Below are positions 3,489 through 54,985 of a DNA stretch of 64,000 bases, piece by piece. Source of the stretch: Panopea generosa (lineage: Eukaryota > Mollusca > Bivalvia > Adapedonta > Hiatellidae); NCBI GenBank assembly GCA_029582155.1, contig CM055902.1, positions 13,050,041-13,114,040 of the forward strand, written 5' to 3'. How positions within the stretch are numbered: the first letter of the stretch is position 1; each line of letters opens with the position of its first letter. The translations under genes were made by a program, and so were the position numbers. The notes beneath the pieces are model-generated. The model searched no databases and had not been told where the DNA came from. It was given only the letters and a program-made list of their open reading frames with translations.

Positions 3489-6400
3489 GTAATAATGTTT
3501 CGTTCTGGATGACGAGATGCGATTCTTTTCAATGCTAGATAATACATGATGTCTCAAATTATGTATACATTTTATCAAAATACACAACGAGAAAATCTAT
3601 TTTAATGAATTTAGTATATTTTCTATACCCTCGTTTCGAATAACTATAGAGACGTTACAACATAGGTGAAGGTGACTACGCTATTTATCCAGCTGACCAA
3701 CATATGTATTGGTTTTAAGTAAATCTTTATTTTCTTTCTTTTCGTGTATATGACGGTCTAAGGTGAGATTTATCAAGTCAATGTGTATCAAATATTCATA
3801 ATGACCATCAGTAATACTATATAATTTTATGTGCATAGAATACGATTAACAGTTAGGAACAAACAGATATAGCATTTGCAGTGAAAACAAATGAACAGAA
3901 GAGTCTATCTATAATTTCTCTGATTTGTCTTATATTAGCTCCGACAGAGACTCTGGCACAGATAAAATACTCCTTGTTACCATTTGTTTGATTCCCGATA
4001 GCAATAAATACACACTATTGATTCTTTATTTTCGGGATTTTGGTTTCAAAATTTTGGTGAATAAAACGGGTAAACGTTCTATATATATATATATATATAT
4101 ATATGTCTATCAGTAATTATGTAATAGTAGATTGCATCTTGTTCTGCCCGTTAATCCATATTCCTGTGACAGAACATATAATTTCGGTTACATAATGCCT
4201 TACTCAGTTAGGCCTAAAGTTAAAACATGTGATCTACTGAACGCTCACTCAGATTTAACAGTAAACATTTAGTGAAAACTCGCTCAGGTTAAGCAGTAAA
4301 CATTTAGTGAACGCTCACTCAGATTTAGCAGTAAACATTTAGTGAACACTCACTCAGATTTAGCAGTAACATTTAGCAGTTTATAGCATTAAATAGCACA
4401 TTCATTCTCTGTTTGCATATTTAAAAAACATATCTTGAAATTTGATACAGTATTTTTTTATACTATTTGGTTTACATGTATGTAGATCTAATTATATCCC
4501 GAAGATAAACTTTTATCCTCAGGATACTTTTGTTCAAAATCCCATGTGTAGTTCAATGCCCATATGTCCATAATACTGGAGTAGGGACGCATTTAATTTA
4601 TCATTTGGAAGAACTACAGAAATGTAAGAAATAATGACGAACAGTTTCTGTTAATATGCTAAAGCATTATAAACATTTTACAAATACCAGTTCATGTCAG
4701 TCAGAAGCAGTCGGAATCAATATTTGTATCATTGTTTATGGAACAAAACGTGAAAAAAATTTCCAAATCCTTTTGACCGAATTACGGTGTAAATCATCAA
4801 GGTACCTTAGAATAGGTCTGACAAATACGGTGCTGGTATATACATAAAAGAAACAGCATGTAAACAACAATGAAAATGTACTTTATGTGTCAATAAATAT
4901 AGTACAGTGAAAATTGCTATTGATCGTTATTGCCAAGATATGTAAGACATGATACATAAACCCATGTACACACATATATTAACATTACAATTCTCCAACA
5001 CAGCTACTCTTGGTATTGACTGTTCTGGTAATAAGCCATGTGAAGCGGCTAACAATGAAGTGTGTGGTGCAGACGACAATAAATGTGGTTGTAAACCAGG
5101 CTTTCAAGTCGATTCTGGAATATGTAAAAGTAATATTTTACAATGAAATATATTCATTTCAGTTAAAAATAATTTACCAATTGGTAGTATATGATAATTC
5201 ATGATATTAATCATTTATGAAGTTATGTTTTTCCGACAACGTCAGGTTCGATTAGCTCGGTAGGTTACGCGTCTGACTATCAATACAGTGGTCGTGAGTT
5301 CGAGTCCCCGTCCGGCAACATTCTCCGTGATGATGATATACGACACTTTGTGTCATTATCATTCATTTCTCACCGCTCTGATTCAAGTGGGAAAGCTAAC
5401 AGTTACTTGAGAAGCTGGGGGGTTCTCGAGTATAACGTAAACTATGAAGTTATCGACATAGTGAGATGTTTTACAATTATCAATTGTATGTAAGGAACAC
5501 CCCATTGGGAGAATTTTTTTTTTATAATTGTTATCAACCTTTAACGCCAATACAGCAAAAGTCGCCTGTATATATTAATAGTAGCAAATTTATTTAACAA
5601 TTAATGTGTAAGCACTTATACTTTAACTATGTCTTAAACTTCTGCAAAATTGAACAATATACTTATTCACACTATAACATGAAAAGTGGGTTAATAATTT
5701 CTAATTTCCATCTGGCTTTAAAATAATATCTGTTTGAGACAATCGAAGATTGAAAATTAATTTCACATAAAAAGGGCCTGCAACTATGTATGTGTTATTC
5801 TTTCAATTCAGGTGGATGTTGATTAGAAAAAAAATCTGTTTTTATAACTGAATTTCGTATATATATATATACAAAGATCTCCATCAAGACTTAAACTTGT
5901 TATACGTGTACCACATTGGTTGTATATTAATATGCGAAATCACATAACACGCCTTTCACTTAGAATGTATTATATTTTCACACAGAATGATATCTTTTTT
6001 TATTATCACTAAGGTTAATACCGTGACTCATATATTATATATACATATCACCTTAGCATAGTTGATTCATATTTACTGACGATTTGTAAATACATGTACC
6101 ACTAAGGTTGCAAAGGCTACATGTCACATCTCATCAACTTATAAACTCCTATTACCCTTAAATCATCTACGATTATACAAAACATATGCACATTCTGTAC
6201 ATACTGAAAAAAATATCACATCAGACGTTCAGAGAAAACACTCCAGTATTTCAGAGATTTTAACTCTAAAAATTAAACTTCTCACAATATCGCTCCTTCT
6301 GATTCTCTTGAGTATTAATTTATGTCTTTCTCTCTCAGATATCTGACTTCCAATGACCACTGCTTGTATCTAACAACTTCACACTCACTGTATGTGTCTT

Positions 6401-8787
6401 ATTAGAACTGTGTATTATTTGACGGATAAATAGTGAAGTTAATAAACGAATTATACATGTGCGTATCACATTATTAGCTACACGAAATGGCAAAAACAAT
6501 TAATTATAATAATAAAATATATATAAAACCTGATGGGAGATAAACACGGACCAATATGTCTTTGCTTACTAGGGAATGGTCTTGTTTGTTCATACCCAGA
6601 TCCTTGGGTTTCTATATTTGTGCGCTAAAATGTATGGCCTCCATATTAAGTACATAGCTGAATCGTTCCCAAAATTTGAATAATACATATATCAGTCAAT
6701 TTACTAACATAAATTCACATAGTAAAATAAATGTATTCATTAAAACAGGAAAAAACGGAATTAGGATAACTTTAAGACAGATAATCACAGCGAGGCGGTC
6801 ATACTAGATACTTAAATGTTTTTTTTTTAGTTTCGAACAGCTGACCTGAACACCCGTGACGAAATTGAAATATAGTTGCTCATAAAGCAGTGTGACGTGT
6901 TCAGAAAGTGATATTTGTTATTTGAAGTAATCGAAATATTAATATAAATTGAAATATTTTGTGTTAAAGTTGAGGTGCGTTTATTTTTCTTTCAGTATTT
7001 ACTATTTTGCGACTTATTCTGGGTATTGTATATGTTTCGTATGTTTTTCCTGTTGTGATATGTTTTTTCAATAATATATCTTCTATTAGACGTTTATTAT
7101 TTAACGAATGTTTAATTTCTTAATCAATCGTTTTCTTTATTTTAGACATAGATGAATGTCTGTCGAATCCGTGTTTGAATGGCGCTACCTGTGTCAATAC
7201 CGAAGGGTCATACACTTGCACCTGTGTTGCAGGGTGGTTAGGAGCAACCTGTAACAGTAATAATGTTTTATTAAGAGTTATAAAATATAATTATGAGGAG
7301 GTTTAATTATTGATCTTGTTCCGAACTCATGACAAAACACATTTGCCAATAGATGATTTTTATGCAATATGTTGCATTTGCAATTTGTAATAAAATATGT
7401 TTTAATGTATTTAATAAAAGTATGTATATTGTTTAAAAACCTGTGTTTAAAATTATAAATATAATTATATTATCAGACAGAAAATATCATCATAATTGTA
7501 TCGTTTAAAATTATTGGAGAAGTAGTTTTCTTTATAATGATCAGATTTCTATAAAATTGAAACTAAAGTTAAACATTTTCTGATTGTTCGCTTTGATGTA
7601 ATAACGGCGGTATAAAACGTTGACAAAATCTTATCTAAACTTTAAGTTATTATATATTGTTAATGATGGGGTCCTATTCATTACCTTATCTATAGGCAAA
7701 ACCTCTACTTTAAAAATACGATTAACAGACAATTATACAATAAATGATTCTTTTCATCTGCAACCAAATATAGTGTATGTTTTTAATATACAGCATATAA
7801 TAAAATATAGGTCCGTAATATTTGATAATTTTATATCTACGATATATTATCTTTGACATTTGGTGTCACTGATCTCCATATGTCACTGATATTTGATTTT
7901 GATTGATGTAAATAACAGTAACATCAATAATGTGTAAGATGATAAGACAATGATTTTTTTTTATACTGATATATATATAATTTGCAGTTGTTTATTTACC
8001 TAACATTTTTCAAAACTTACATTTAAACGACGTAACATATACGTAACATATTTTTGAAGATACATATTGAAAACATTTTGATGAAATAAACTATTTTACA
8101 GCATTTGATTGCACCGGTGTCACTAATGCCTGTAAGAACGATGGTACCTGCGAGGCCGGGAAAACAGCGTGTACTTGTGTGGCGGGATATACGGGAGATG
8201 ATTGTGGAACAGGTAAGTGACGAATATAAAACTATCATCTATGTAATGACACGTTTCTTTGATTATGATATTATCATTTAAAAATTGTTTGCATAATTTA
8301 TATATTTAGGTTACGAAATGTATTTCATTTCCACTAGTTATTATTTTAGGTATTATAAGTTCATATCATGTCTCTTAAGTCATCTTTATGTTTTGTCCGT
8401 CATACTGATGTTTATTTTAATATTTGTATTGATATTTCTGATTTTATCGAAACATTATTGTTTTAGCTAGTAATTGATTGTTATCTCTAAACTTTGTATC
8501 TGATATCTTATCTTAACAATGAATTATTTGTGTCTGTTAAGTTTACTTTTCTTGATCTGACTAAAGAACTTGTATAAAGTGAACTGTTTGGACAATGGTG
8601 TCTAGTATGATATTATACAAAGAAAAAAATCTCTAATAAATTTCATTAATATTTTACATTTGGTATTTTTCCCATTGTGTATAAATAATATACTTCAGCT
8701 CCTGATAACTCGGCTGGCAAGACAGCGGTGGCTGCAGTTACACTGATGATGGCAGTCCTGACAAACATAATAATACAGATGTTTTGA
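3375..8787 (+). CDS. 3' part of a multi-EGF-domain, probably GPI-anchored, extracellular protein gene
   Basis: Five exons can be read: 3375-3488, 5004-5129, 7146-7256, 8102-8212 and 8699-8787 (stop TGA at 8785-8787). Each internal exon is a multiple of three, starts after AG, ends before GT and sits between phase-1 introns, so each encodes one exchangeable EGF-like module. The order is calcium-binding EGF, variant six-cysteine module, calcium-binding EGF, short EGF, then a tail with a small-residue cluster followed by about 16 hydrophobic residues to the stop. That layout is typical of a secreted protein tethered to the outer membrane leaflet by GPI. The signal peptide and any earlier modules lie upstream and are not seen. 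EGF modules usually mediate protein-protein contacts (Notch-ligand, fibropellin or matrix type), but no specific partner can be assigned. A single transmembrane helix with almost no cytoplasmic tail is the alternative. Exon calls are confident; the assumption that all five belong to one transcript is inference from phase and order. Confidence 0.82.
4080..4104. repeat. (TA)n microsatellite in intron
   Basis: About 12 perfect TA units within the intron between the first two EGF exons. Confidence 0.9.
4239..4375. repeat. 35-bp minisatellite, about four units, in intron
   Basis: Nearly four units built on GAACGCTCACTCAGATTTAG followed by CAGTAAACATTTAGT occur head to tail, with small substitutions and a shortened last unit. 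The array lies in the first visible intron of the EGF gene. Confidence 0.85.
5004..5129 (+). CDS. Exon: variant six-cysteine EGF-like module
   Basis: This 126-nt exon (42 codons) lies between AACACAG and GTAATA, again in phase 1. Its six cysteines are spaced C-x5-C-x7-C-x6-C-x-C-x10-C, longer than a canonical EGF between cysteines 2-3 and 5-6. It lacks the DxDE calcium motif and the hydroxylation consensus. The segment CGCKPGFQ keeps the C-x-C...GF core of EGF and EB-type modules. It may be a divergent EGF or an EB-like domain. Confidence 0.82.
5240..5440 (+). mobile_element. tRNA-derived SINE, family A, 3'-truncated copy
   Basis: The head reads like a tRNA: box-A-like TTAGCTCGGTAGGTTACGCG and box-B-like GTTCGAGTCCCC, followed by a body (CCGTGATGATGATATACGAC, then TTCAAGTGGGAAAG) shared with copies at 19285-19566, 36636-36755 and 38493-38773. 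It ends after CTCGAGTA, missing the last 70 bases seen in the 38.5 kb copy. It lies in the EGF-gene intron, in the sense orientation. Confidence 0.85.
5441..7145 (+). other. Intron sequence without recognisable features
   Basis: AT-rich intron between the second and third EGF exons. I checked candidate acceptors, for example near 5811, and found immediate in-frame stops. No further cysteine-rich exon is visible. Confidence 0.6.
7146..7256 (+). CDS. Exon: calcium-binding EGF module 2
   Basis: This 111-nt exon (37 codons) follows TTTAG and precedes GTAATA. It starts DIDEC like module 1 and has the same C-x4-C-x5-C-x8-C-x-C-x8-C spacing. [12 protein letters not shown] matches the Asx-hydroxylation consensus. 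The first intron bases (GTAATAATGTTT) equal those after module 1, suggesting the two exons arose by duplication that included intron sequence. Confidence 0.9.
8102..8212 (+). CDS. Exon: short EGF-like module
   Basis: This 111-nt exon follows TTTTACAG and precedes GTAAGT, a strong donor. Cysteine spacing is C-x6-C-x5-C-x6-C-x-C-x8-C with the typical [10 protein letters not shown] ending. It lacks the acidic cbEGF start, so calcium binding is not predicted. The frame continues in phase 1 into the terminal exon. Confidence 0.9.
8699..8787 (+). CDS. Terminal exon: probable GPI-anchor attachment signal
   Basis: After acceptor TACTTCAG the phase-1 frame reads [10 protein letters not shown], then a hydrophobic run ([19 protein letters not shown], 19 residues) directly before TGA. 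A small-residue omega region (N/S-A-G), a short spacer and a hydrophobic end with no basic cytoplasmic tail is the classic GPI signal layout. The cleavage site cannot be fixed by eye. A tail-less transmembrane anchor is the alternative. Confidence 0.8.
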
Positions 8788-10145
8788 TGTGATCTAATTT
8801 GCTGTGCTGCTTTTTAACTATTTATTTTTCATAGTTTGCTGTTGCTGACTGTTGCCAATGTATAAATTGAGACAGTGTTTCTTTATTTTCTAATTGAGTT
8901 TTTTTTTTTCAATGTGAAGTAACATAAAAAATTATGCCAAAATACAAATAGCATATTTTGTTAAAGTACTGATGTTTTATTACACCTCTCGGAATAATTT
9001 GCTTTGATGTTTATTAATCAGAACTACATTGTTTTTCCTTTATTGTTTCTCGTGGTCGTTCTCGTTGGTTATGAACTTTGGAGGAGGACTGTTGACACAC
9101 CAAGTAAATAGAATACTTGTAAAGAACGAAAGGCATCTGAACTTGTATTATTGACTATATTATAAACATTATTTGCTGTTAATTGCAAATACTTACAGAT
9201 GTGTGTCCAAACATTATGATTGAATTAATTGTGTATTCACCATATGTGTTTATCATGTGACATGGATCTTCAAGTGTATGTACTTTTAAACGAATATTGC
9301 AGCATTGCTAGTAGTTTTAATTAGTATGAATTTGTTGGTTGTTGAAATGTGCATGACACAAAAGATCTGGCAAGTATGAAGTCGAGTATGAACTGAATAT
9401 TACAATGATGAAAAAGTCGTAATTATATGGTTATCTAAATATACATTCCAATGATGAGTTGAAAGTCGTCATATAATGATATAGTTAGCTTCATTTTAAA
9501 CTGCAATGACGAGTAGTAAAAGTCGTAGATGGATTCAAGAACCTCTATCCAGATTACATTGTTTAATGATAAAGGTTAGAAACAAAGTTTTTGATCAAGT
9601 TAGGTAACAGATACTCTAAAACAAAATTGCTTATATTGGTTTTTATATTCCTGCAGAAAACCAAATGAACATGGATAAATGCTCAACCAGACACGTAATC
9701 TTCTAAAATCTAAAACCAGACTGTTCTCGTAGCACACAATGTCGAGTCTTTCCAATTAACATTCCATTCATTACTATGGAAGAATGTTAACAATGTAAAC
9801 ATAGCATTTAAAGCGGCATAGCAAGTATTTTTGTTCTTTCAAATCAACAAACAAACTTGCATAACTGCAATATTTAGTATGAAATTGTGTCAATCTGGAA
9901 CATGTCTGGTGTGAAATACCTATAAAGAAATGTATTAGCTGTTATAAATGAATCGAAGGCCATGAGAATTCACGAAAATGTTTTGTCATTCATAATCATG
10001 CTTCTTTTTTATCAAAGAAATACTGGCTATACCACTTTAAATAACTTGGCTTCACGTTTGTTATCGATAATGTTTCAATATCAATATTGTTTTTATTTGT
10101 GTGTTATGTGTGCTTACAAAATAAAGAAAACAGTTTATAAAATAT
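8788..10145 (+). other. Probable 3' UTR and downstream flank of the EGF gene
   Basis: No coding signal follows the TGA. Three loosely similar segments, each with CAATGA(T/C)GA followed by AGTCGT, lie at about 9400-9530. The first clean AATAAA I see is at 10120-10125, followed by T/G-rich sequence, which would give a 3' UTR of about 1.3 kb. The UTR extent is inference. Confidence 0.4.
10120..10125 (+). terminator. Candidate polyadenylation signal AATAAA
   Basis: A canonical AATAAA lies about 1.33 kb after the EGF-gene stop, with TGTCTGTTT about 25 bases further on. In AT-rich DNA such hexamers arise often by chance, so this is only the best candidate. Confidence 0.35.
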
Positions 10146-10517
10146 TGTCTGTTTAATTTCATATCAAAAAAGCGTGTAGACCTATCAAAATATGGATTAC
10201 GAAAAGGAAATACAAATGACCGGACCGTGACTTTGATTTTCACACTGATATTTTTACAAACTTTTAAGGAATTTCCCCCGTAGTAGTTAAATGTGAAAAT
10301 GAATGTCATATATAAATGGCATATTTATGAGAAATATATGAAGATTACAGCGAAAACACTAGTCAAACGTATTATAAAATGGATATCTGTTTCGATCCAC
10401 CCTATTAGGCCGAACATATTAATGTACAGCACTTAATTGCAAACTTTGTTCAAAGGATATTAAATGAAATGTAATTCAATATGAAAAAAAAACGAATCAA
10501 GTACGGGTTCACTAAAT
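10146..10517. other. Unassigned AT-rich spacer
   Basis: No gene or repeat family recognised between the candidate EGF-gene polyadenylation site and the tRNA-like array. The minus-strand open frame at 10061-10309 has no domain signature. Confidence 0.5.
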
Positions 10518-11020
10518 CGCTGTGGTGGTCTAGGGATAGAGCGTCCGCCTTGCGTATGGATGGTCGTGGGATCCATCCTCGGTTTGGTGGTCTAGAAATA
10601 GAGCGTCCGCCTTGTATACGGAAGGTCGTGGGTTCACTAAATTGCTGTGGTAGTCTAGGAATAGAGCGTCCGCCTTGTATACGAAAGGTCGTGGGTTCAC
10701 TAAATCGCTGTGGTGGTCTAGGGATAGAGCGTCCGCCTTGTATACGGAAGGTCTTGGGTTCACTAAATCGCTGTGGTGGTTAGGGATAGAGCGTCCGCCT
10801 TGTATACGAAAGGTCGTGGGTTCACTAAATCGCTGTGGTGGTCTAGGGATAGAGCGTCCGCCTTGTATACGGAAGGTCGTGGGTTCACTAAATCGCTGTG
10901 GTGGTCTAGGGATAGAGCGTCCGCCTTGTATACGGACGGTCGTGGGTTCACTATATCGGTTTGGTGGTCTAGGGATAGAGCGTCTTGCGTACGGAAGGTC
11001 GTGGGTTCGAGCCCCGGCCT
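10518..11020 (+). repeat. Tandem array of about eight tRNA-like SINE heads (63-bp units)
   Basis: Eight head-to-tail units of 61-65 bp each carry a box-A-like TGGTCTAGGGATAGAGCGTC, an anticodon-arm-like CCGCCTTGTATACGG and the start of a box B (GTCGTGGGTTC). In the first seven, box B is cut short and runs into CACTAAATCGCTGTGG and the next head. Only the last unit (from about 10955) has a full GGGTTCGAGCCCCGGCC. Because 63 is divisible by three the array is open in several frames, but that is a by-product. The array sits directly upstream of, and in register with, the body of the SINE at 10955-11252, so I read it as a polymeric SINE promoter head rather than functional tRNA genes. Confidence 0.85.
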
Positions 11021-11252
11021 GATTAAAACAACTTATAATAAGACTTAAAAACTGGAACTAGAAGCTTTTTTCGCTTGGCGCTCGGCATTTTGAGAATACA
11101 TGTATTGTTCAAGGACTGGTCGACCTGGTGTCAGTCTAATGTGACATGGTTGGGTATCATACCTTGCATTTGCGCATGATGCTCCAGCGTGGCAGCACTT
11201 TGAATACTGTCTAAAGTATACTCCGTAGCGATATAACTGAAAATGTGTTGAA
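10955..11252 (+). mobile_element. tRNA-derived SINE, 5' portion, split by LINE insertion
   Basis: The last tRNA-like head is followed by a body with CGCTTGGCGCTCGGCATTTT, CAAGGACTGGTCGACCTGGT, CAGCGTGGCAGCAC and GATATAACTGAAAATGTGTT, an arrangement I associate with mollusc SINEs. The element stops at 11252 and resumes at 17235/17248 with AACGACACTAAACACA, so the LINE between landed in its 3' tail. Confidence 0.8.
11240..11252. repeat. Left 13-bp target-site duplication of the LINE
   Basis: AAAATGTGTTGAA here is repeated without mismatch at 17235-17247. It borders the 3' end of the minus-strand LINE. Confidence 0.85.
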
Positions 11253-11470
11253 TGAATGAATGGTGTTTTACGGCACGTCGACACATAAATAGGTCATTTT
11301 GTGCGTGCAAAGATTAATGGACGTGATGATGACAAAAATATATTAAATAAATACGGTTAAAAATGTATTAAAACTATTTACAAATAAATAAATGAAAATT
11401 ATTTACAAATAAATAAATGAAAAAAAACAACAACAAATAAGTGAACAAGGTCAATAATATAATAATTGTA
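11253..11470 (-). other. LINE 3' UTR with ATTC-repeat end
   Basis: After the ORF2 stop the element continues through T-rich sequence with two direct repeats of ATTTATTTATTTGTAAATA, then GTGCCGTAAAACACC and three CATT units before the duplicated target site. Short tandem 3' ends instead of poly(A) are usual in the I-type group. Confidence 0.75.
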
Positions 11471-14400
11471 CTAAAAATGATTAAAAAGCTTAACCTCTTT
11501 AAGGAAACCAAATATATGTGAAACATCAATTTTATCAAATAATTCATTCATACTGTCGACTCTGTAGTATTTTTTCTCGCATTGGAGAAAAGTCCACACA
11601 GTCGATCAGTATGTGCTTCACAGTAAGCGGTGCAAAACAGGGCACACACTCTGGAACAGGTTCACGTTTTTAAAAGATATGAATGTGTATAGCGCGTATG
11701 CCCAATTCTACACCGAGCTAATACAATTTCTTCTCGACGAATACACCTATTGCTAGGATGCCATTCGCCAAGTTTTGGTTTAATAACATGTAATTTGTTA
11801 TTTATAGCAAGATCCCAAGAGGACTGCCATGACCTAAAAATATATTTATTAATATGAGATTTAAAATCTGTAAAAGGCAGTTTAAAAGTAATAATATTCA
11901 AGCTTAAGGCTGCTTTTGCAGCCTTATCAGCTTTATCGTTTCCTCGAATTCCTGAATGGCTAGGAAGCCAGCAGAAAACAATAGTATTATCTTTACATAG
12001 AACATTGTATTTATTTAAAAGTTGAAGAACAAGAGGATTATCATCTTTCATGCCATCTATGGCTTGAAGAGATGAAAGTGAAATCAGAAAATATAATAAA
12101 CTGTTTTTCCTCAGAATCATTAATGTAGTCCAATGCCAAATCAATGGCTTTGAGTTCAGCTGAAAAGATGGAGGCTCCGTTTGGTAATCGGCTCTTTGAG
12201 GTGTGCTGTTCTGTAACAGCAGCTGCAGCCACGGTTTCTCCATCTTTAGAACCATCTGTATATATGTGACAATAATGATTATAAGACGATTTGATTTCAT
12301 TAAATTTACTTTGGAAGATAGTGGAGTCTGTTTCAAATTTTTTTGTCTTTACAAAGTTCAAAAATTATTTTTGGTTTCTCCAAAGTCCATGGTGGTATTT
12401 GTGAGACTTTGTACTTAGCAATTAAATTAAGATCAATATTGGCTTCGGTTAGTTTTGGTTTGATCCGGAGACCGAAAGTTCGAATAGCTTTAGGTTTTTT
12501 ATCAAAGAGAGTTTCATAATTTGGGTCAAAAGTAAGATTAAAAGCAGGATTAGATGGATTTGAATGAAGTTTAATTGCATATTGAAGAGCCAGTTTTTTC
12601 ACGTCTTAAATACAACGATGGTTCATTTGCCTCTACATAAAGACTGTCGGCAGGGGACGTACGAAAGGCACCAAGGGCGAGTCGTAGTCCTTGGTTGTGT
12701 ATAGGATCAAGCATCGCTAAGTAAGACTTGCGAGCTGATCCATATACAATAGAGCCGTAGTCCAATTTTGATCTGATTAGAGATCTGTAAAGTCGAAGTA
12801 AAACTTTACGATCTGCACCCCAATTAGTATTGGCAAACAACTTTTAATAAATTTAGTGCTTTATTACACTTTGTCTTAAGATATTTAAGATGAGGAATAA
12901 AGTAAGTTTACGGTCAAAAATAAGACCTAAAAATTTTGTTTCCTCAACAACAGGTATAGGTGTCCCATCTAACGTTAGATTGGGATCATCGTGATGTTTA
13001 CGTAGTTGACAAAAATGCATACAATTTGTTTTAGACTTAGAAAATTTAAAACCGTTTTCATCAGACCAAGTCTGAAGTTATTAAGGCATTGCTGTAGTTG
13101 CCTTTCAATAGTTTTCATATTTTTGAACGGTAACAAATTACAAAATCGTCAACATATAAAGAGCAATCCACACCAGGATTTATACTCTTAACAATATTAT
13201 TAATTTTAATATTAAAAGTGTGACAGACAGAATACTGCCTTGTGGGACGCCCATCTCCTGTTTGTGAACATCGGAGAGGTCTGTTCCCATTCGGACATGA
13301 AACTGTCTATCATCTAAAAAGTTTAAAATAAATGTAGCTAAACGGCCACGAAGGCCCATATTATGAAGATCTTTCATAATGCCATACTTCCACGTGGTGT
13401 CGTAGGCTTTCTCCAAGTCAAAAAATACAGCGACTAAATGTTCTTTCTTTATGAAAGCCTCCCTAACAAACGATTCAAATCTAACTAAATGGTCTGTAGT
13501 GCCCTTTGGCGTCGGAATCCACTTTGATACTTAGTAATTAAGTTGTTGGATTCCAAGAACCAAACGAGGCGACCATTAATCATACGTTCCATGGTTTTAC
13601 AAACACAACTTGTCAAAGCAATTGGACGGTAATTAACGGGATCCGTGTTATCTTTTCCAGGTTTGGGTACCGGAATAACGATAGCTTCCCTCCAAGACTC
13701 GGGGAAGTTTCCAGTCACCCAAACAGAGTTAAATATATCAAGTAGAATTAATAAGGACGATTCGGGTAAATGTTTTAAAAGTTGATAATGGATATCGTCC
13801 GGACCAGCTGATGTATCATGTGCCTTCTTTAAGGAATTTTTCAATTCATTCAAAGAGAACTTCTTATTATATTTTTCTGAATTATTTGATTTGAAGTTTA
13901 GTTTCTGCTTTCAGTCTGATGTTTATGTTTTAAAAATTTTGGATTGCAATTAGTGGTAGATGAATTTTTTGAAAAAGTATCTGCCAAAGTATTAACGATG
14001 TCTTTGGCAGATGTGGCAGTATGATTTTCAGTTTTTAAATGGTTAACGCAACCTGGAGTACCCTTACCGTTGATTTTTCGGACCATGTCCCACGCCTTCT
14101 TAAGGGAAGTACGAGAATTAAGCCTAGAGACATAATCTCTCCAGGACTTTCTCTTACTCTCCTTAAGAGTACGTCTTGCTTTCGCACGAAACACTTTAAA
14201 ATTGTCTAAATTATGTTGTGTAGGTCGTAAATTAAATTGACTTAAAGCTTTTTTACGATCCTTGACTGCATTCTTGCAGTCATCATCATACCATGGTTTT
14301 TTAGGGCGTTTTGGATTTGTCGAGGTTTTTGGGATAGATTTTTCGGCTATACTGTATAATATTGATGAAAACTGACCAGCAGGATCATCCGTATCGTTAA

Positions 14401-15166
14401 ATAAATCAGGCTTTAACTGTTCTTCGCAAAGAGATTGGAACATATGCCAATCTGCTTTGCGAAGTTTCCATCGTTGATTTCTATCAAGAAGTGGAGGTCC
14501 AATATTTTCAAGAAATATTGGATAATGGTCACTCCCGCAGAGGTCATCACCAACACTCCATGAAAAGTCTAACAAAAGTGATGGCTCACAAACTGATAAA
14601 TCGATGGAAGTTTTCGATCCTGAAGCAGGATGTAAATATGTATGAGATTTATTATCATTATAAAGACATAGGTTATTTTGATTTAAAAAAGATTCAACTT
14701 TATTACCTTATCATTAATGTCTTTACAACCCCATATGTAATTGTGGGCATTAAAATCCCCCAAAAGCATAAAAGGTGATGGCAATTGTGCAATGAGTTGA
14801 TCGAGATCTTTCGGATCAAGGGTTGCACTTGGTGGTAAATATAAAGAGCAAATTGTAATAACTCTATGCATTGTAACACTAACTGCAACTGCTTGCAGAT
14901 TAGTGTCTAATGCAATTGTACTGTGTGGGACGTTTCTATTGACAAGAATAGATACGCCACCAGTTGCTTTTTCACCTGTATCACAAATTGTGTTATATAA
15001 AGAATACTGTTTTAAAAGTAGTTTTATCAATAGACTTCAAAAACGTTTCTTGAAGACAAAATGCAATAGGGTTATGTTCATTTAAAAGTAAACTAATCTC
15101 ATCATAATTTGGTTTTAAACCTCGACAATTCCATTGTATTATTTTATTTGAATTTGAATCGTTCAT
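11471..15166 (-). pseudogene. LINE ORF2: endonuclease-reverse transcriptase-RNase H polyprotein, frameshifted
   Basis: The start at 15166 gives MNDSNSNKIIQWNCRGLKPN, the opening of an APE-type endonuclease; later endonuclease marks are QET, LLGDFNAHNYIWG (about 14740) and GSDHYPI (about 14530). Reverse-transcriptase motifs follow: AGPDDIHYQLL, NYRPIALTS, LEKAYDTTWK (motif A, about 13416), GVPQGSILS (motif B) and YVDD (13145-13156). The RNase H region has IYTDGSKDG, AELKAIDLA, IIFSD and the C-terminal SGIRGNDKADKAAK, so all four acidic positions can be found. A CVPCF...TVKHILIDC zinc-like end follows, and the tail KEVKLFNHF stops at 11471. At least seven frame changes are needed to read through, including ones near 15010, 14690, 13880, 13470, 13200, 12600, 12340, 12075 and 11560. 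Exact indel positions are estimates. Confidence 0.9.
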
Positions 15167-16580
15167 TTAGGTGGAAGTATAGGTGCTAAAGGGACTTTTA
15201 ACTTAACGACCTTGGAGGAATCCGATGATGCATCATCGGTTTCCATATCAAGGTAGGAAAATTTATTTTTCAACCGTATAGAGTCATCAGACTCCTCCGG
15301 TTGCTTCCCTGTTACGCATAATTTTGCAGTGGCTAGATGTATCTTAGCCTTCTGCGGAGTAGTTGGACTCTTGGTAATACCAGAGCCCGATGGTTTGGGG
15401 AACTCGGGACATTGCCCGAGTTCTCCGGTTTTTGGGGTACTCGGGACATTCCCCGAGTTCGCCGTTTTCTTATTAGAAATAGATGTAAGATTTTTCTTGT
15501 TTTGTTTAATATTTGGTTTAGGTAGTATAATTGGTTTAATTACCGGAGTTGAAGTCTGAGTCTCAGATGAGACTTTGGAATTACCAGGACACGACAGCAA
15601 TATATGGTATGGGATTATCATTAAGCCAGGTAATATCAGTTTGAATTTCCATACATCTTGTGGTCTTTTTCTCAACAACTCTACTCACTTCAGCATATGA
15701 TTTACCTGAAGGAGCAGATGGAGATTGGAGTTCAACAAGACGTCTGGCCTCTGGGAATGATACTTTATTTTGTAATTTAACTTTTGAATTTCGCGTTCTT
15801 GTTTCCATTTTGGACAATCCCTCGAGAAAGCCCCGTGGTTCCCTTTGCAATTAATGCAAAGGGCGGGTTTTTTTTTCAAGACGAGAAGTCTGTGTGTCCT
15901 TGTTCGCCACAGCGAGCACACAGGGCAATTCGTCTACATCTCTCTCGATGGTGTCCAAACTGTTGACAGTTAAAACAACGAAGTGGGTTGGGTATAAAAA
16001 GGTCAACGGGTAAAGATATATAACCGATTTTTACAGATTTTGGAAGGTTTGGAGAATTAAACGTAAGAATAAAAGTATTAGTCGGTTTTATATTGCCATC
16101 TTTCCTGGTATTAATTCTGGTCACCTCTGAAACTCCCTGTGGTTTCAAATTGACACTCATCTCCTCAACAGTACATTGTTCCAGTTCCCTGGAACGAATG
16201 ACTCCTTTGGAGGAGTTGAGTGTAATATGAGGACGGACTTCTACAGGTATGTCAACAAATTTTTTTAATGAAAGGAGATTGTCAGAATGACTTTTTTTCT
16301 GACATTCAATCAAAATCTTATCAGATTTGAGCTTTTTCACCTCTCGCGGCTCACCAGCAATACCAAGTATTTGCTTGTGAATCGCAAAAGGTGAAAGCTT
16401 TGTTACTGGTCTAGATGGATCTGTTGATGTAACTGTTAAAAATCTTGGCCAATTAGTTGAAGTCAATAAATCGTCATCTGATTCAGTCTCCACTGAATCG
16501 TGTCGAGCACGCTTCAGAACAGACTGAGCAGGTGTAGGTCGTTTTGTAGTATCGTTTTGGTGTCTTTTTTTGGAAGCCAT
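15163..16580 (-). pseudogene. LINE ORF1: CCHC zinc-knuckle nucleic-acid-binding (gag-like) protein, frameshifted
   Basis: I place the start at the ATG at 16580 (MASKKRHQNDTTKRP), after an in-frame upstream leader with no conserved features. A basic, S/T-rich N-terminus leads to an RRM-like central part and then three zinc knuckles: CFNCQQFGHHRERC (C-x2-C-x4-H-x4-C), CARCGEQGH followed by a displaced cysteine, and CINCKGNHGAFSRDC. The C-terminal third is P/T/S/K-rich and ends PLAPILPPK. The frame shifts at a run of nine A/T near 15869-15877, again near 15755 and again near 15600, each time continuing the expected protein in another frame. The stop TGA (15163-15165) overlaps the ORF2 ATG as ATGA. 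In the family ORF1 coats element RNA and acts as a nucleic-acid chaperone. Confidence 0.85.
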
Positions 16581-17234
16581 AATGAGTTTGTGTTTGTTTC
16601 GGTTGTTCACGTTTCTCACCCGCCTCGGAGCCCAACAAGGGGACCACATGCTGTGGATATCCGACAGACATGATGCCAAGAATACGTGGACAATATACTC
16701 CAGCAAAGTAATACATCAGATCCCGCATACCACCCGATGGATGTAAATTCAAGTCCCGACAAGACAAGAACCGCACCAACATCCATCTAAAATGGCATAC
16801 GTATAACCATATAGCATTTCACTTTACAAGATTAGCCCATAAGCCATGATAGTTTTCAAGAATTTGAGAGTAAGATAACTAATATATATATTCATAGAAA
16901 ATAAATATAGACAAGTAAATGAGAATGGAAAAAATCAATGGGGATGAAATAATGGAGAAAGGATGATACATGACAAAATATAATCCAAGAAAAATATCAT
17001 GACAGACCGATTGATCAAGACCGGGCCCATCCGACCTCCCGTCTTGACTTGAAATCCGGACCAAAGTGGTGTGTTGCGTCGCAGACTCCTGCGGCGCTCA
17101 ACCACCAGGACTCCTTCATCCAACCGCACGGGTCGCCACCCACGGTCAACAGGTGGGTTCCTTTTCGGGGAGGATCTTACCCCTCTGCTTGGAACGAGCA
17201 GTCGGTAAATTCTAATCCCTACCGACAGGGGGGA
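16581..17234 (-). promoter_or_regulatory. LINE 5' UTR / presumptive internal promoter region
   Basis: On the minus strand the element starts with a C-run and CTGTCGGTAGGG, followed by a GC-rich stretch (17234-17000) and then AT-rich DNA up to the ORF1 ATG at 16580. The first part is markedly richer in G+C than the surrounding DNA and contains the inverted match CTGTCGGTAGGGATTAGAAT with a nearby TTTACCGAC, which could form a stem. Internal promoters are usual for full-length LINEs, but no specific element is proven here. Confidence 0.5.
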
Positions 17235-17247
17235 AAAATGTGTTGAA
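17235..17247. repeat. Right 13-bp target-site duplication of the LINE
   Basis: Second copy of AAAATGTGTTGAA, bordering the LINE 5' end, whose first element bases on the minus strand are TCCCCCCTGTCGGTAG. Flanking bases differ on both outer sides, so the duplication is 13 bp. Confidence 0.85.
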
Positions 17248-17275
17248 AACGACACTAAACACAATACAACAGCGG
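17248..17275 (+). mobile_element. 3' remnant of the split SINE
   Basis: Immediately beyond the right-hand target-site duplication, AACGACACTAAACACA continues the GAAAATGTGTTG end of the SINE at 11252. Removing the LINE plus one 13-mer restores one continuous SINE tail. Confidence 0.75.
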
Positions 17276-18868
17276 TTACTAACTGAAGGTTTTTTGTTTT
17301 TTTAAGAGTTGTTGTCATTTTTTAACTTTGTTATTTGCTGCCACTATTGTTCCATGGCTATACGTCACTTCGATAGTCTGGCTAAAGTAAATTATGTTTA
17401 TTGTTTTATATCGCCCCGTTTGAAGTAGTTGATTTACAGTAAATCTAATATTATTTTGGAAGTACTGTGCACCATTTATGTGAAATTTTTGACATTCATC
17501 TTTTGAATGAGGATACAATGTATGTGTTTAACTTCTATAAACATGGTTTATACCTGGTAAATGTTGTTTAATAACACAAAATATAAAAAAAAAATCATGT
17601 TAAAAAAACTATGTTTAATAAATAAAATATATGACACATGTAAGTATGTGTGTGTGTCTTATTACTCTGCCTTTCAAAATTGCCAAGATTCACACAATAT
17701 CTAAATTCAAATTATTACTATAAAAGTAAATTATTGTCGTTAATGACAACATTTAAAAAGATTAAATTACAATAACAAGACGACACGGGTTTTGTATATT
17801 GAAATAAACTAGATGTATAATAAAAAGTTGAAGTATTACATATCGTGTAAGGTAGTAAAAGCTATGTCAATTTCACAAATGGACTAGTTTTGCTCTAATG
17901 AAAAACTAATTATGCACTATAGGAGACGTAATATTACAAAAAAACACATAGTCATGACAACATCACAATCCCAAATGATGAATTAAATAATCATTTTATG
18001 GCATTCCAAACATACTCGGGTTATAACAACGAAAAAAACCAGACTGTGAAATAAACTATCAATGGAGATCTGAGTATCGTTATATTCAAATCTAGAAACA
18101 CATATCGCAAATCGTTGTACCCTGCAAATAAAGCCTTTGTAGCAAAACATGTTACACTTTAAATAAAGAACTCTTGAACCGACATGCAAAGTTAGTATAC
18201 ATTAATGAATGACACACTATATGTACAACACAAACATGAATGCAAATCAACTACAAATAATTACGTATTGGGACTAAGATTATGTTACTTAGTTATATAA
18301 GATATATAAATATGACTGAAGCCAGGCAGCAACTGAAGGACCGATCTAAAACATTGTAATTTTGTCAGTCGAGTTACAAATTATGACCCTAATTCTATGT
18401 AGCTTTCTTGTTTACCACAATTGAGCCTACATTTATCGTAACGCTGATTTAATAAGCACCAATGGTTGTTTATTATAGTTATTTCTCCTTTAGAATGTAA
18501 GTGCCTTGCCCCTCATGGGGCTTGTTTATAAATGATCTGTGTACCATGAATAAAGGAAATTTCTTCCGTTTACACTTTCTGTCGTTACCTTTAAAACTTG
18601 ATACCAAAACAAATAGTATTATAGTACTTGGTTCTATACGTTGTTTTTATGATATCGATGTTGACAATATTGGTAAACAGGTTTCCAACTCGAGAGATAT
18701 CGTAGTTAATTTAAAACACAAATTTATTAGCAAGGGAGGTAAGTGAATAATGAGACGATTCCTGAATATATCCCGATTATTGCTCGTGAATGATGTTTTG
18801 ACCTGTGTAATGTGTTTGTTGTCTTATACACTTTACATAATATTAAGATAATATAAAGTTATAGTAAA
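17276..18868. other. Unassigned AT-rich DNA
   Basis: No recognisable gene. The open frames at 17315-17518 (-) and 18501-18746 (+) match nothing I recognise. A short inverted repeat GCCCCTCATGGGGC lies at about 18509-18522. Confidence 0.5.
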
Positions 18869-19125
18869 GTGTATGTTAATTATAGTGTCACCCAAATAGA
18901 TAGAGCCAGCCATAATAGGCTTATGAGACACATCATGTTATATACCGTTCTTGCCAGACGTCAAACTGTTACACATTCGATACCCTTTGATTTAACTAAT
19001 GCTGTGCAGGCAATAGGCTGCATCAGAAAAAAAAACAACTGCTTCCATCAGGAATTGAATTTTCGACCTAGCGCTTCAAAGGTACACGCCTCAACCACTA
19101 GACCTTGGGAAACGGTGTCGTCCGG
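18869..19125 (-). mobile_element. tRNA-derived SINE, family D (minus strand)
   Basis: Read on the minus strand, 19125-19055 gives a tRNA-like head: box-A-like AAGGTCTAGTGGTTGAGGCG and box-B-like GGTCGAAAATTCAATTCC, followed by a T-run and an unrelated body down to about 18869. The head sequence differs from families A, B and C. The long plus-strand open frame here is only the reverse of the SINE. The body's 3' limit is uncertain. Confidence 0.65.
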
Positions 19126-19284
19126 ATATATGTCCGTCAGGAGATGTAGCATTAAAAAGACACAATCAGCTGACACTTCGTTCTTCCACTGTCTTTTAAC
19201 GAGTCAGCGTTAATATAAGTTCCGCTTGTCACAATTCTTTGTCAAATGGGCTTATTAATTCTTAATTTTATATTGCATAACATC

Positions 19285-19566
19285 GGACCCTGTTTGCTAA
19301 TTCTGTAGCGCGTCTGATATCAATTCAGTGTTCGGGAGTTCGAATTCGTGACTGGCCACTTCGACGTGGTGATTGATTTACGATATTGCATTTTATTATC
19401 ATTCGTCTCTGATCACTGATTCAATTGGAAAAGTTGTCTGTTACTTGCGGAGATGGGTGTGCTCGAGTAGTGTTTAACCGTTCAAGATCCCATGAAAGAG
19501 CGGTAAGGTTAACTGATGATCCGTTAGCCCTCGAGGACATAAAAGTGACGCTAAGAATTCAAACAC
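19285..19566 (+). mobile_element. tRNA-derived SINE, family A, near full length, diverged
   Basis: Head AATTCTGTAGCGCGTCTGAT...GGGAGTTCGAATTCGTGAC, then the family-A body (GTGCTCGAGTA, GGTTAACTGATGATCCGTTA) and tail TAAAAGTGACGCTAAGAATT. Alignment by eye to the 38.5 kb copy covers the full length with many substitutions, so this is an older copy. Confidence 0.8.
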
Positions 19567-21399
19567 GTTTACATTCAATACATTCTTTAATTAGTGTGGC
19601 AATGATAATTACATTCTATACTATATTGTATATCTATAATTTCCCCCAAATCACCCTTGTTACACTATGCATGGTTATGTATTTTTTTCCTTTTTTGCCA
19701 AATATTTTAACTAAGCATATTTTATTGTCCGCAAGGTTTTTCCTGGCACCATGAATATTCCGTGTATATCCGTAAATTAATTGTCGGTGTTCGGACGTAA
19801 ATAGTGAAACTACTGTTGATAAATCGACACCAATACTTTTTTAAATCGACATCATATCTCACTCACAAATAGCTCCACGGGGAATGCAACTTAAAGTATT
19901 GGGGAAGATTAATGAACACCAGGTTAAACCTTACGGACAATAGTACTGCATTTTGTTTTGTATCGTAATTATAATCTGATTAATTATCCGTAATGGAATT
20001 ATGAGTTACTCTAAATTTTACATTAAAACACGATATGCCATTGCAAATTTGTCAAGAACGAATTTCTAGTTGAATATTAATACGCATACTTTTGTGTTCT
20101 GTCTGACACTGCATATACACAATCAGATACGTCTTTTAAAATAAAACACTCAAATTGTTAGCGTCAACGCAAGTTTTTCATTTCAACGACTGGCCTCATT
20201 ATCCAGATTTCTGTACGAGTCACGTTTTATATTGACATCGTCACATAGGTAGGATTTGTGTAAACAATGGGATTTTCGAAGCGGGTGAATAGTAAACGTG
20301 GCGATCTGTATAAGTGTTTTAGTGAAAAAGTGTATCAGCTAACTTAAAGTTTAAATGACATTGGGTACTATTTTTTATTCTCCATATTAACAGAAAAAAA
20401 AACAAGTTCTGAATACGTTTTAACATTGTGTTCAATTATATGATAAACATTCTACCGTCACCTTTTTTTTTGTTTTGTTCACTTTCTTTTCGTGGTATAA
20501 TTTATTGTGTCATTACCATTTAACTAATATTTAAATTCAGATAGTTATAAATATAATGTCAACATCTGTTATTACATTCACAAAGAACTGTGTTTTATTA
20601 TGTAAATAAGAGAATATTTGATATTATAATTAAAGTGTTATATTGTTATAGTAACAATATATTTGTTTGTAATTAAGGATTCGTTTTTTATGTGTTTGAG
20701 GGTGTATTTTTGCTATGTTATTTAATGTTGTTAAGGGATTAAGTTTGTTTGCTAGATTAGATAGTTCAGATATACAGTGTATTTTGCAATTAAGATACTT
20801 TTCGTGTTTTTTTTATCATTAAGAAATAATGTATATTTGTTATGTTATTAAACGGTAACATGTTTTATTTTGTTATTAAGGATTGATGTGTGATGTTATG
20901 TGCCACAAATACTTCAACGATATTTGTTTCAAAGAAATGCTGCTTAACTATTGCATTAAACATAGTCCTTACTCTTTTTACTGTATGTCTTGTGACTGCG
21001 TAGTTGTATGCAAACACTAAATCCAATGTGACATATCAATAGCAATCAAGTCTTCAACAGGTACATTTTATTCAAATACATTTTGCGAAAACAAAAAATA
21101 TACGTTGATTAAGTTTAAACTTTATTATCGGGGAGGGTGAAAGCTAAAAAGTGCTTCTTTATATATCTGCACTTAGACCTTTTTCGTGTTTCACCCCTCG
21201 ATATATCATCAAGTACTATACAGTGTTTCTACGATACACTAATCTACCTGTCTATTTCACGATTTAAAAAAAAGAAATATACTTATAACAGTGACCAATT
21301 AATGCTTCAAGTGTGCATGTTTCTTTAGATCGTTTTAAGTTTATGTTTTTTAATATCTACCAAACGGTTTCATTACCCCTTCACCGTTACATCGTCTTG
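19567..21399. other. Unassigned AT-rich DNA
   Basis: No gene, RNA or transposon recognised. Open frames at 19425-19754 and 21137-21328 (+) have no domain pattern, the first being partly SINE. Confidence 0.5.
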
Positions 21400-22556
21400 T
21401 CATTTAAGATATTTACTATCACTTCGTAAATACAATATTTCATTTTGAGGGTCAAACGGGTCAAACTGAATACACTCAGGTTGTATTTTATGGACGTTAT
21501 CATTGAGAGCTATATGCACAATGATTACTTGGAGTGTTTCATTTGAAAATTGTTCTTTCCAATTAGAGTGATTCTCATACCAGTACGCATCAGTTGTATG
21601 AAATACATTCTTTGGAGTCTGGAAAAGAGCCTCACATGATGGGTTTCTCTTAGACAGATATTTGTCAAAACTGTTGACCGGGCACATTTTACCGTTACTT
21701 TCATGCATTCTCACATTTTTGTCTTCAACTTGATTAGTTGCTTCTCCCTTTTTTTGAGATTTCTGAATCTTTCTGGCATTCATACTTTTTACCATTTCCA
21801 TCAATTCGAATGTCAAACATAGAAACCTTCAGCTGTCGTTGGTTTTCTCGTCCCCGTCTACAAAATACATGCAGAGTTCAAATCAAGACCACATGGATTG
21901 TCGACATCAAACGATACCGAAGAATACACCTGATAATATCTGCCTTCTCCACATCTGCTTTATGCTTGGCCCCACCTTTGCCTCTTTTGGATGTATCATT
22001 ACACATGGATTCAATCATCTCATTCTCATTATCAGCATTATGCTGATTGTAGATTTGGAGGGTCAAATACGTTTCCTCTTTAACACTAAAACTTTCTTTA
22101 TACTCTATCCCTTCTTTACTCTCTACATAAACAACTTATTTCTTATGTTATACATACAGACATTACTATTACACATTGTGACAACTTTAAGTTATAAAAT
22201 GTAAACTATAAGTTGTATATATAACAACCAAATAATGTGTTTATTTTCATATTCTGCATTATTTTAAAGGTCATATGTTATTATTGTGAACGGCTTTAAT
22301 ATACAATTTTGGAATTTATAAACATAGTATGAAGGCATTTATTAATATAAAATGTACATCTTAACATGCTATCATCCTTATTATTGTGTTATGAACACTG
22401 TGTTGCTATTTGCATATATGTATAATGAGAAATAAAACATTTAAAAACACAAACATCTTATTCGCTGACTTGAAAGCATCGTTTTTAACTACATCCACAC
22501 CTTTCGTCTTGTTAAGGAATCTGCAATCAACAAAATACATTATTTAATAAAACAGT

Positions 22557-26440: not shown

Positions 26441-26480
26441 GATTGGTTGATTGATTGAGTATTTAGCGTCATTTTATGCC
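26441..26480 (-). mobile_element. SINE family-A-like 3' tail abutting the satellite
   Basis: GATTGATTGAGTATTTAGCG then TCATTTTATGCC matches, with one change and one missing T, the inverted tail of the family-A SINE at 38493. The satellite begins immediately after. Confidence 0.75.
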
Positions 26481-29275
26481 AGCCTGTCTTGAACGCACTA
26501 TCAGTAAGCACATCCTGACGTATCACGAGCGGATAAGGCAACACCAGCCTGTCTTGAACGCACTATGAGCAAACACATCCTGACGTATCACGAGCGGATA
26601 AGGCGACACCAGCCTGTCTTGAACGCACTATGAGCAAACACATCCTGACGTATCACGAGCGGATAAGGCGACACCAGCCTATCTTGATCGCACTATGAGC
26701 TAGCACATCCTGACGTATCACGAGCGGATAAGGCAACACCAGCCTGTCTTGAACGCACTATGAGCCAACACATCCTGACGTATCACGAGCGGATAAGGCG
26801 ACACCAGCCTGTCTTGAACGCACTATGAGCCAACACATCCTGACGAATCACGAGCGGATAAGTCGACACCAGCCTGTCTTGAACGCACTATGAGCAAACA
26901 CATCCTGATGTACCACGAGTGGATAAGGCGGCACCAGCCTGTCTTGAACGCACTATGAGCAAACACATCCTGACGTATCACGAGTGGATAAGGCGGCACC
27001 AGCCTGTCTTGAACGCACTATGAGCAAACACATCCTGATGTACCACGAGTGGATAAGGCGGCACCAGCCTGTCTTGAACGCACTATGAGCAAACACATCC
27101 TGACGTATCACGAGTGGATAAGGCGGCACCAGCCTGTCTTGAACGCACTATGAGCAAACACATCCTGATGTACCACGAGTGGATAAGGCGGCACCAGCCT
27201 GTCTTGAACGCACTATGAGCAGACACATCCTGACGTACCACGAGTGGATAAGGCGGCACCAGCCTGTCTTGAACGCATTATGAGCAAACACATCCTGATG
27301 CACCACGAGTGGATAAGGCGGCACCAGCCTGTCTTGAACGCACTATGAGCAAACACATCCTGACGTATCACGAGCGGATAAGGCGGCACCAGCCTGTCTT
27401 GAACCCACTATGAGCAAACACATCCTGACGTATCACGAGCGGATAAGGCGGCACCAGCCTGTCTTGAAAGCACTATCAGTAAGCACATCCTGACGTATCA
27501 CGAGCAGATAAGGAAACACCAGCCTGTCTTGAACGCACTATGAGCTAGCACATCCTGATGTACCACGAGTGGATAAGGCGGCACCAGCCTGTCTTGAAAG
27601 CACTATCAGTAAGCACATCCTGACGTATCACGAGCGGATAAGGAAACACCAGCCTGTCTTGAACGCACTATGAGCTAGCACATCCTGATGTACCACGAGC
27701 GGATAAGGCGACACCAGCCTGTCTTGAAAGCACTATCAGTAAGCACATCCTGACGTATCACGAGCGGATAAGGAAACACCAGCCTGTCTTGAACGCACTA
27801 TGAGCTAGCACATCCTGATGTACCACGAGTGGATAAGGCGGCACCAGCCTGTCTTGAACGCACTATGAGCAAACACATCCTGATGTACCACGAGTGGATT
27901 AAGCGGCACCAGCTTGTCTTGAACGCACTATGAGCAAACACATCCTGACGTATCACGAGCGGATAAGGCGGCACCAGCCTGTCTTGAACGCACTATGAGC
28001 AAACACATCCTGACGTATCACGAGCGGATAAGGCGGCACCAGCCTGTCTTGAACGCACTATGAGCAAACACATCCTGACGTATCACGAGCGGATAAGGCG
28101 ACACCAGCCTGTCTTGAACGCACTATGAGAAAACACATCCTGACGTATCACGAGTGGATAAGGCGACACCAGCCTGTCTTGAACGCACTATGAGCAAACA
28201 CATCCTGACGTATCACGAGCGGATAAGGCGGCACCAGCCTGTCTTGAACGCACTATGAGCAAACACATCCTGACGTATCACGAGCGGATAAGGCGACACC
28301 AGCCTGTCTTGAACGCACTATGAGAAAACACATCCTGACGTATCACGAGTGGATAAGGCGACACCAGCCTGTCTTGAACGCACTATGAGCAAACACATCC
28401 TGACGTATCACGAGCGGATAAGGCGACACCAGCTTGTCTTGAACGCACTATGAGCAAACACATCCTGACGTATCACGAGCGGATAAGGCGACACCAGCCT
28501 GTCTTGAACGCACTATGAGCAAACACATCCTGACGTATCACGAGCGGATAAGGCGACACCAGCCTGTCTTGAACGCACTATGAGCAAACACATCCTGACG
28601 TATCACGAGCGGATAAGGCGGCACCAGCCTGTCTTGAACGCACTATGAGCAAACACATCCTGACGTATCACGAGCGGATAAGGCGACACCAGCCTGTCTT
28701 GAACGCACTATGAGCAAACACATCCTGACGTATCACGAGCGGATAAGGCGACACCAGCCTGTCTTGAACGCACTATGAGCAAACACATCCTGACGTATCA
28801 CGAGCGGATAAGGCGGCACCAGCCTGTCTTGAACGCACTATGAGCAAACACATCCTGACGTATCACGAGCGGATAAGGCGACACCAGCCTGTCTTGAACG
28901 CACTATGAACCAACACATCCTGCCGTATCACGAGCGGATAAAGCGACACCAGCCTGTCTTGAATTCACTATGAGCAAACACATCCTGATGTATCAATAGT
29001 GGATAATGCGACACCAGCCTGTCTTGAACGCACTATGAGCAAACACATCCTGATGTACCACGAGTGGATAAGGTGATACCAGCCTGTCTTGATCGCACTA
29101 TGAGCAAACACATCCTGATGTACCACGAGTGGATAAGTCGATACCAGCCTGTCTTGAACGCACTATGAGCAAACACATCCTGATGTACCACGAGTGAATA
29201 AGGCGACACCAGCCTGTCTTGAACGCACTATGAGCAAACACATCCTGACGTATCACGAGCGGATAAGGTGACACC
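26481..29275. repeat. 65-bp satellite, 43 units, no net indel
   Basis: The unit starts AGCCTGTCTTGAACGCACTA, continues TGAGCAAACACATCCTGACG and ends GGATAAGGCGACACC. From 26481 to 29275 is 2795 bases, exactly 43 x 65, and the unit start stays in register wherever I checked. Variants mark subfamilies: GACGTATCACGAGC versus GATGTACCACGAGT, and GAAAGCACTATCAGTAAGC. A 130-bp dimer repeats three times from 27456, and the two main variants alternate at about 26900-27350. Minus-strand open frames at the right edge are by-products, since 65 is not a multiple of three. Confidence 0.97.
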
Positions 29276-29608
29276 ATCCTCTCTTTGATAATTGTTTGTA
29301 CACCGCATCGTCGGCGCATGCGCTAAATCGTTTCAAGTATGACACCTATTGTCACGCCTTACATAAGTATATATTGTAATTCTTATAACCAATCTTTATA
29401 TTAATTGTGTTCAGGCTGCTTTGGTCGCTCTATCCTTTGATTGTTTAGTTTCTGTTGGTTGTATATAATAACTGATAAATATGTTCATCCTCATCAAACT
29501 TAGTTTATGTAAAGTAAATGTGAGTGTATACAAACTAAAATCTAATCTATATAAGTTCTGAAATGTCGATAGTAAGCGCTAATACGTGTGATGGTGTGCG
29601 AACATGTT
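29276..29608. other. Right flank of the satellite
   Basis: Unique-looking sequence. The satellite ends abruptly at ACACC and no SINE head is visible beyond it on the minus strand. Confidence 0.5.
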
Positions 29609-54531: not shown

Positions 54532-54929
54532 AGCCGTTTAATTATTCTAACTTTCTTAATATTTAATGGAATTTGATGAACTTAACTTCAAAATGATTTA
54601 TTCTTTAATAAAAGAATGAAAATGTAAAAATACCTTAAAAACGTTGCTCCTATCGATCTATCAATACGTTTTAGCAATTCCACACTACCTGGCCTAAATA
54701 TAGCCTATATCCCTACAATGGACACGTATTAGCCGTTTAATTATTCTAACTTTCTTAATATTTAATGGAATTTGATGAACTTAACTTCAAAATGATTTAT
54801 TCTTTAATAAAAGAATGAAAATGTAAAAATACCTTAAAAACGTTGCTCCTATCGATCTATCAATACGTTTTAGCAATTCCACACTACCTGGCCTAAATAT
54901 AGCCTATATCCCTACAATGGACACGTATT
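54532..54929 (+). repeat. Perfect 199-bp tandem duplication
   Basis: 54532-54730 and 54731-54929 read the same by eye, starting AGCCGTTTAATTATTCTAAC and ending ATGGACACGTATT. Copy 1 of R has only one such segment. Confidence 0.88.
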
Positions 54930-54985
54930 AGCTGACACTACTAAATTAGGCCACAACAACCTAACTATTTTGTTACACATTGATA

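Follow-up and report, generated by a model that had tools for sequence, protein, structure and literature searches.

Origin of a tandem array of tRNA-like heads at a SINE insertion in Panopea generosa

How does a SINE come to be preceded by a whole row of tRNA-like heads? The question is raised by a locus in the window, by which we mean the entire 64,000-nt stretch analysed (C9:13050041-13114040 in the 1.47-Gb, 39-contig genome of Panopea generosa). An earlier note on this DNA had described about eight tandem heads in front of a SINE body, and the count was borne out: TRF returned a tandem array at 10505-11008 (period 63 bp, 8.1 copies, 89% match, score 791) that contains eight box-A heads, of which only the eighth runs on into the SINE body. 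The units start at 10505, 10567, 10630, 10693, 10755, 10818, 10881 and 10944. The features of the locus, including its relation to paralogues on the same contig (L009-L013), are as follows.

10504..10516, + strand: 5′ flank of the SINE insertion, CGGGTTCACTAAA, probably the 5′ target-site duplication; a similar flank stands before the single heads of L012 and L013
10517..10943, + strand: seven truncated tRNA-like head units; box A present; in all but unit 1, whose box B is whole and degenerate, box B stops after GGTTC
10944..11022, + strand: last head (unit 8), with a complete box B, GGTTCGAGCCC, and a 4-nt deletion common to L011
11023..11252, + strand: SINE body, which with its head is ~76% identical to single-head copies elsewhere; T6 run at 11066
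11253..17234, - strand: LINE, antisense in the SINE tail, with matches to zinc-knuckle (weak), endonuclease, RT and RNase H in broken ORFs
17248..17272, + strand: remainder of the SINE tail, from comparison with L011
17273..17283, + strand: 3′ flank, CGGTTACTAAC, probably the 3′ target-site duplication, from comparison of flanks
5998..21741, no strand: stretch common to the window and L011, the LINE aside, 92-98% identical in pieces; its limits are those of the stretches compared

The SINE itself is a dispersed element, with at least 40 matches on many contigs (40 of 3895 candidates were scored), and all seven of the dispersed copies compared (L014-L020) have one head. The last head of the window is tRNA-like, with no mismatch in box B and one in box A. 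ARAGORN called tRNA-Ala in two of the eight loci scanned (the single head of L018 and unit 1 of L009) and no tRNA in the window, while an Rfam search of window positions 10001-11700 (E up to 1) gave a snoRNA as its sole match, at 24.1 bits against a cut-off of 100 bits. A literature text search with pieces of the SINE body returned no matching paper.

Some details of the earlier description required amendment. Seven heads are indeed truncated, but the box B of unit 1 is whole and degenerate, and the supposedly complete eighth head is missing 4 nt between box A and box B, though its box B is whole. The body does follow the last head, but the impression that it ends normally at 11252 arose because the LINE splits the tail, which resumes at 17248. 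The LINE is bounded by a 13-bp target duplication, AAAATGTGTTGAA, at 11240-11252 and 17235-17247; it is present in the window and absent from L009-L012. The body of L013 stops earlier, at the equivalent of 11163. Other repeats in the window include a 65-bp tandem array of 43 copies at 26479-29285 (94% match), in a stretch with a higher G+C content than the adjoining DNA, 41-bp arrays at 56518-58767 together with a perfect two-copy repeat of 234 bp, and a perfect 199-bp tandem duplication at 54532-54932, which is either very recent or an effect of the assembly.

The units had also been said to meet at the same box-B position each time. This holds for six of the seven joints, which are of the type GGGTTC followed by ACTAAATCGC (four exact, two with one or two changes). 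Units 1 and 2 meet differently, a degenerate full box B being followed by the next head; in L009 and L010 the same joint consists of an intact box B followed by TGTGG, as does that between units 2 and 3 in L010. The presence of two joint types in the array indicates that at least two kinds of duplication happened. In the form GGGTTC followed by ACTAAATCGCTGTGG, the first six letters are the start of box B and equally the window flank, and the next six are flank. The flank letters after GGGTTC are ACTAAA at five of the window joints and ACTATA at one, and the last 6-12 nt of the 5′ flank at 10504..10516 belong to every typical repeat unit. The single heads of L012 and L013 are preceded by GGTTCCGCTAAACCGC and GGTTCTACTAAACCGC, respectively, with GCTAAA beside the head in L012 and ACTAAA in L013; the flanks of the four dispersed single-head copies compared differ and are unrelated. 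Because the units carry the 5′ flank of the site at their joints, the array is best explained by DNA-level tandem duplication after insertion, and the insertion-site flank inside the unit is a useful proof that the array originated in place. Support for target duplications at the paralogues is modest: the candidate in L009 (CGGTTTCACTAAA / CGGTTTACTAAA) was equalled by 36 of 2000 shuffles, and those in L010, L011 and L012 by 133, 116 and 511 of 2000, respectively.

Comparison along C9 revealed that 5998..21741 is a segmental duplication, parts of which are shared by L009 and L010 and, more distantly, by L012 and L013. The flank upstream of the array (window 6000-10500) is ~87-92% identical in pieces to L009, L010 and L011, and ~72% identical, in parts, to L012 and L013; among the close paralogues ~2.7-4.5 kb of it is continuous. 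Beyond the LINE, the shared stretch resumes at 17235 and in L011 reaches 21741, the end of the stretch compared. An unrooted tree of ~2 kb of upstream flank, ((L012,L013),L010,(L009,(window,L011))), had support of 1.0 for the split of L012 and L013, 1.0 for the window with L011, and 0.81 for the node with L009, and flank identities were 92.8-97.2% within the array group versus 76.3-77.2% to L012 and L013. In the one genome assembly on which the counts rest, there are eight heads in the window, eight in L009, seven in L010, two in L011, and one each in L012 and L013.

The relative age of the array can be approached through its units. Mean unit identity within arrays (86.0-92.0%) is close to that between arrays (87.4-90.0%), which suggests that the array is older than the duplication of its neighbourhood and that there has been little homogenisation within arrays. 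The odd full-box-B joint between units 1 and 2, found alike in the window, L009 and L010, also makes the array appear to predate the duplication. Unit-by-unit correspondence is clear only between the window and L009, where the first units are 96% and the last 95% identical. The first units of L010 match less well (85%, with 91-93% for the last), and its same-position means (86.8-91.3%) are about equal to the all-pairs means (87.4-90.0%); judged from these identities, its array could have undergone separate growth or exchange. Since L011, the sister of the window, shares the deletion in the last head, its two heads are most simply explained by contraction.

We consider it highly likely that the locus began as a single-head SINE insertion, gained its array by tandem duplication in place, was copied by segmental duplication, and then underwent contraction in one copy. 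A tRNA-derived SINE with one head, taken as the ancestral state by parsimony, would have inserted once at the site. Its box B (GGGTTC) would then have been joined by DNA-level tandem duplication to a similar, GGTTC-like stretch in the 5′ flank, yielding a 63-bp unit made of flank and a head truncated in box B. Short homology probably mediated this initial duplication; this microhomology spans 6 nt in the window and 3-5 nt in the paralogues, and conversion by the adjacent array may have altered the window flank. Unequal exchange or slippage would next have enlarged the array, with duplication of the surrounding region along C9 following, and would later have cut it to two heads in one paralogue. 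One head in two distant paralogues, flank within the units and an array in four close paralogues are observed, and from these we infer the order of events and the recombination mechanism. The array has changed length like a minisatellite; it is a small SINE-derived satellite and probably has no function. 'A satellite born from a SINE promoter', one of the two origins that the earlier note had offered, is a fair description.

Two other explanations appear very improbable. The first is that polymeric-head SINEs form a mobile subfamily, transcribed and retroposed whole, for which one might cite the similar flanking repeats that bracket array and body at C1:7.14 Mb, C6:22.3 Mb and, less clearly, C5:16.1 Mb; none were clear at C4, C1:94, C7:55.8, C8 or C7:76.4. 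Against it, the C9 units contain insertion-site flank, the other arrays each have their own unit consensus, and the C9 body contains the T6 run. In addition, the four best array-plus-body matches all lie on C9 (40 of 3895 candidates scored, so that counts are lower bounds), as do the four best array matches (40 candidates scored, likewise a lower bound). With 40 candidates scored in each search, matches of at least 89% over most of the array were confined to the C9 paralogues, the long matches on C4 and C5 being only 69-70% identical and made of other units, and no polymer common to independent insertion sites was found.

The second, also raised in the earlier note, is a multi-promoter Pol III element, in which the heads would be repeated promoters or TFIIIC sites under selection. 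Scored against consensus boxes, box A has at most two mismatches in all eight window heads, and box B is intact in three of the seven heads of L010, two of the eight of L009 and one of the two of L011. In the window, however, box B is free of mismatches in one head and has three in the other seven, and it is at least three mismatches off in six of the eight heads of L009 and four of the seven of L010; L011, moreover, has two heads only. The T6 run would end a Pol III transcript early. The proposal is left unsupported because box B is degenerate in most heads and the body contains this run, and on these motif scores a multi-promoter role for the array is unlikely. That the array is an assembly artefact is scarcely credible, since tandem arrays are error-prone in assemblies but seven or eight heads with different unit variants are present in three paralogues. 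Tandem insertion of separate SINEs, against which the earlier note had already argued, is rejected because the same joint recurs in most units and these contain flank from the site.

Tandem duplication of SINE heads is not confined to this site. A search of the 1.47-Gb genome for paired box-A motifs spaced by 36-66 bp gave 201 matches, and its reversed control none, so chance is not the cause of the pattern; a single box-A motif had 8604 matches genome-wide. The matches listed of the 201 (up to C9) comprise 12 loci if the C9 paralogues are taken together as a single locus, and a thirteenth array locus, on C4, came from the array similarity search. Arrays without a SINE body, which the earlier note regarded as evidence against its reading, were not common: the body of the same SINE lies in line with the heads in 11 of the 13 array regions, the window's included (10 of the 12 further ones), one array is joined to the likely body of another SINE, and one has none in the stretch compared. 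In 10 of the 11 regions this body is a direct continuation of the last unit. By eye, the unit consensus varies by locus; main unit lengths elsewhere range from 28 to 66 bp, and unit numbers in the further arrays from ~4 to ~137.

The largest of these numbers belongs to L053 (C7:76386000-76395500), where 137 copies of a 37-bp unit, derived from the box-A portion of the SINE head, fill ~4.8 kb. This array abuts the body at SINE nt 151, beyond which lies a SINE copy in inverted orientation. At C2:87286900-87291900 (L057, L068), at least 75 copies of a 58-bp unit from another tRNA-like head run into a piece that is 78% identical over 85 columns to L060, a putative SINE of another kind, and, by this similarity, looks like the body of a second SINE family. 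The array at C2:45.8 Mb (35-bp units, with 25-bp stretches) has no body within the stretch compared. L051 (C4:20836500-20842000) has 57-bp head units in a 178-bp three-unit higher-order repeat, and sits between other, unrelated tandem arrays. At C9:25805600-25807800 (L061, L069, L070), a single SINE copy has two arrays, one of the head (54-bp units) and one of the body (62-bp units, at least 11.2 copies).

It might be that these SINEs have, at their promoter end, a hot spot of tandem duplication that seeds 5′ head satellites in two or more SINE families, one conceivable cause being that replication stalls at TFIIIC-bound heads, but we regard both the hot spot and this cause as rather unlikely. 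The array searches used head sequence and so cannot show that the head is favoured over the body, and the body array at C9:25.8 Mb speaks against exclusivity of the head. If the hot spot were real, a dispersed Pol III element would keep seeding head satellites in this genome. The arrays offer useful material for studying the birth of satellites from mobile elements and any preference for the promoter end.

In the literature search, the closest reports on SINE satellites or multi-head SINEs were papers on squamates (PMC10702118) and on a limpet (PMC11121367). In squamate SINE-derived satellites (sSats), a segment of a tRNA SINE is repeated in tandem, and the terminal unit is longer, extending to the SINE end (PMC10702118). 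The C9 array is similar in both respects: its head-to-tail units are part of a SINE, and terminal unit 8 runs into body and tail, interrupted by the LINE. The sSats form many few-unit loci and some very long ones, mostly of independent origin; unequal homologous recombination is proposed for the initial duplication, and restriction to squamates is considered uncertain (PMC10702118). Subtelomeric preference is a feature of sSats; on C9, which is 73.8 Mb long, the window is located at 13.05 Mb. By contrast with sSats, the arrays sampled here, by searches that asked for head sequence, comprise the box-A end with the body 3′ of them, while the main snake sSat unit spans box B plus some of the body (PMC10702118). 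The C9 unit contains insertion-site flank, whereas some gecko and teiid units carry extra letters whose origin is given as unknown in the same paper. PcH-sat of the limpet Patella caerulea is, like the C9 array, a satellite with SINE-derived sequence (Nin-SINE), but it has 179-bp monomers, makes up ~10% of the genome and is mainly pericentromeric, in contrast to the short arrays at single sites described here (PMC11121367). Dimeric and multimeric SINEs such as Alu and Dip also place several small-RNA-like units in a row; Dip multimers are full-length SINEs and Alu amplifies as a dimer, according to PMC10702118, whereas the truncated C9 heads arose in place. The window array is the same phenomenon as the SINE-derived satellites already known from squamates, and here one genome shows its steps: single-head insertion, array with flank, segmental duplication and contraction.
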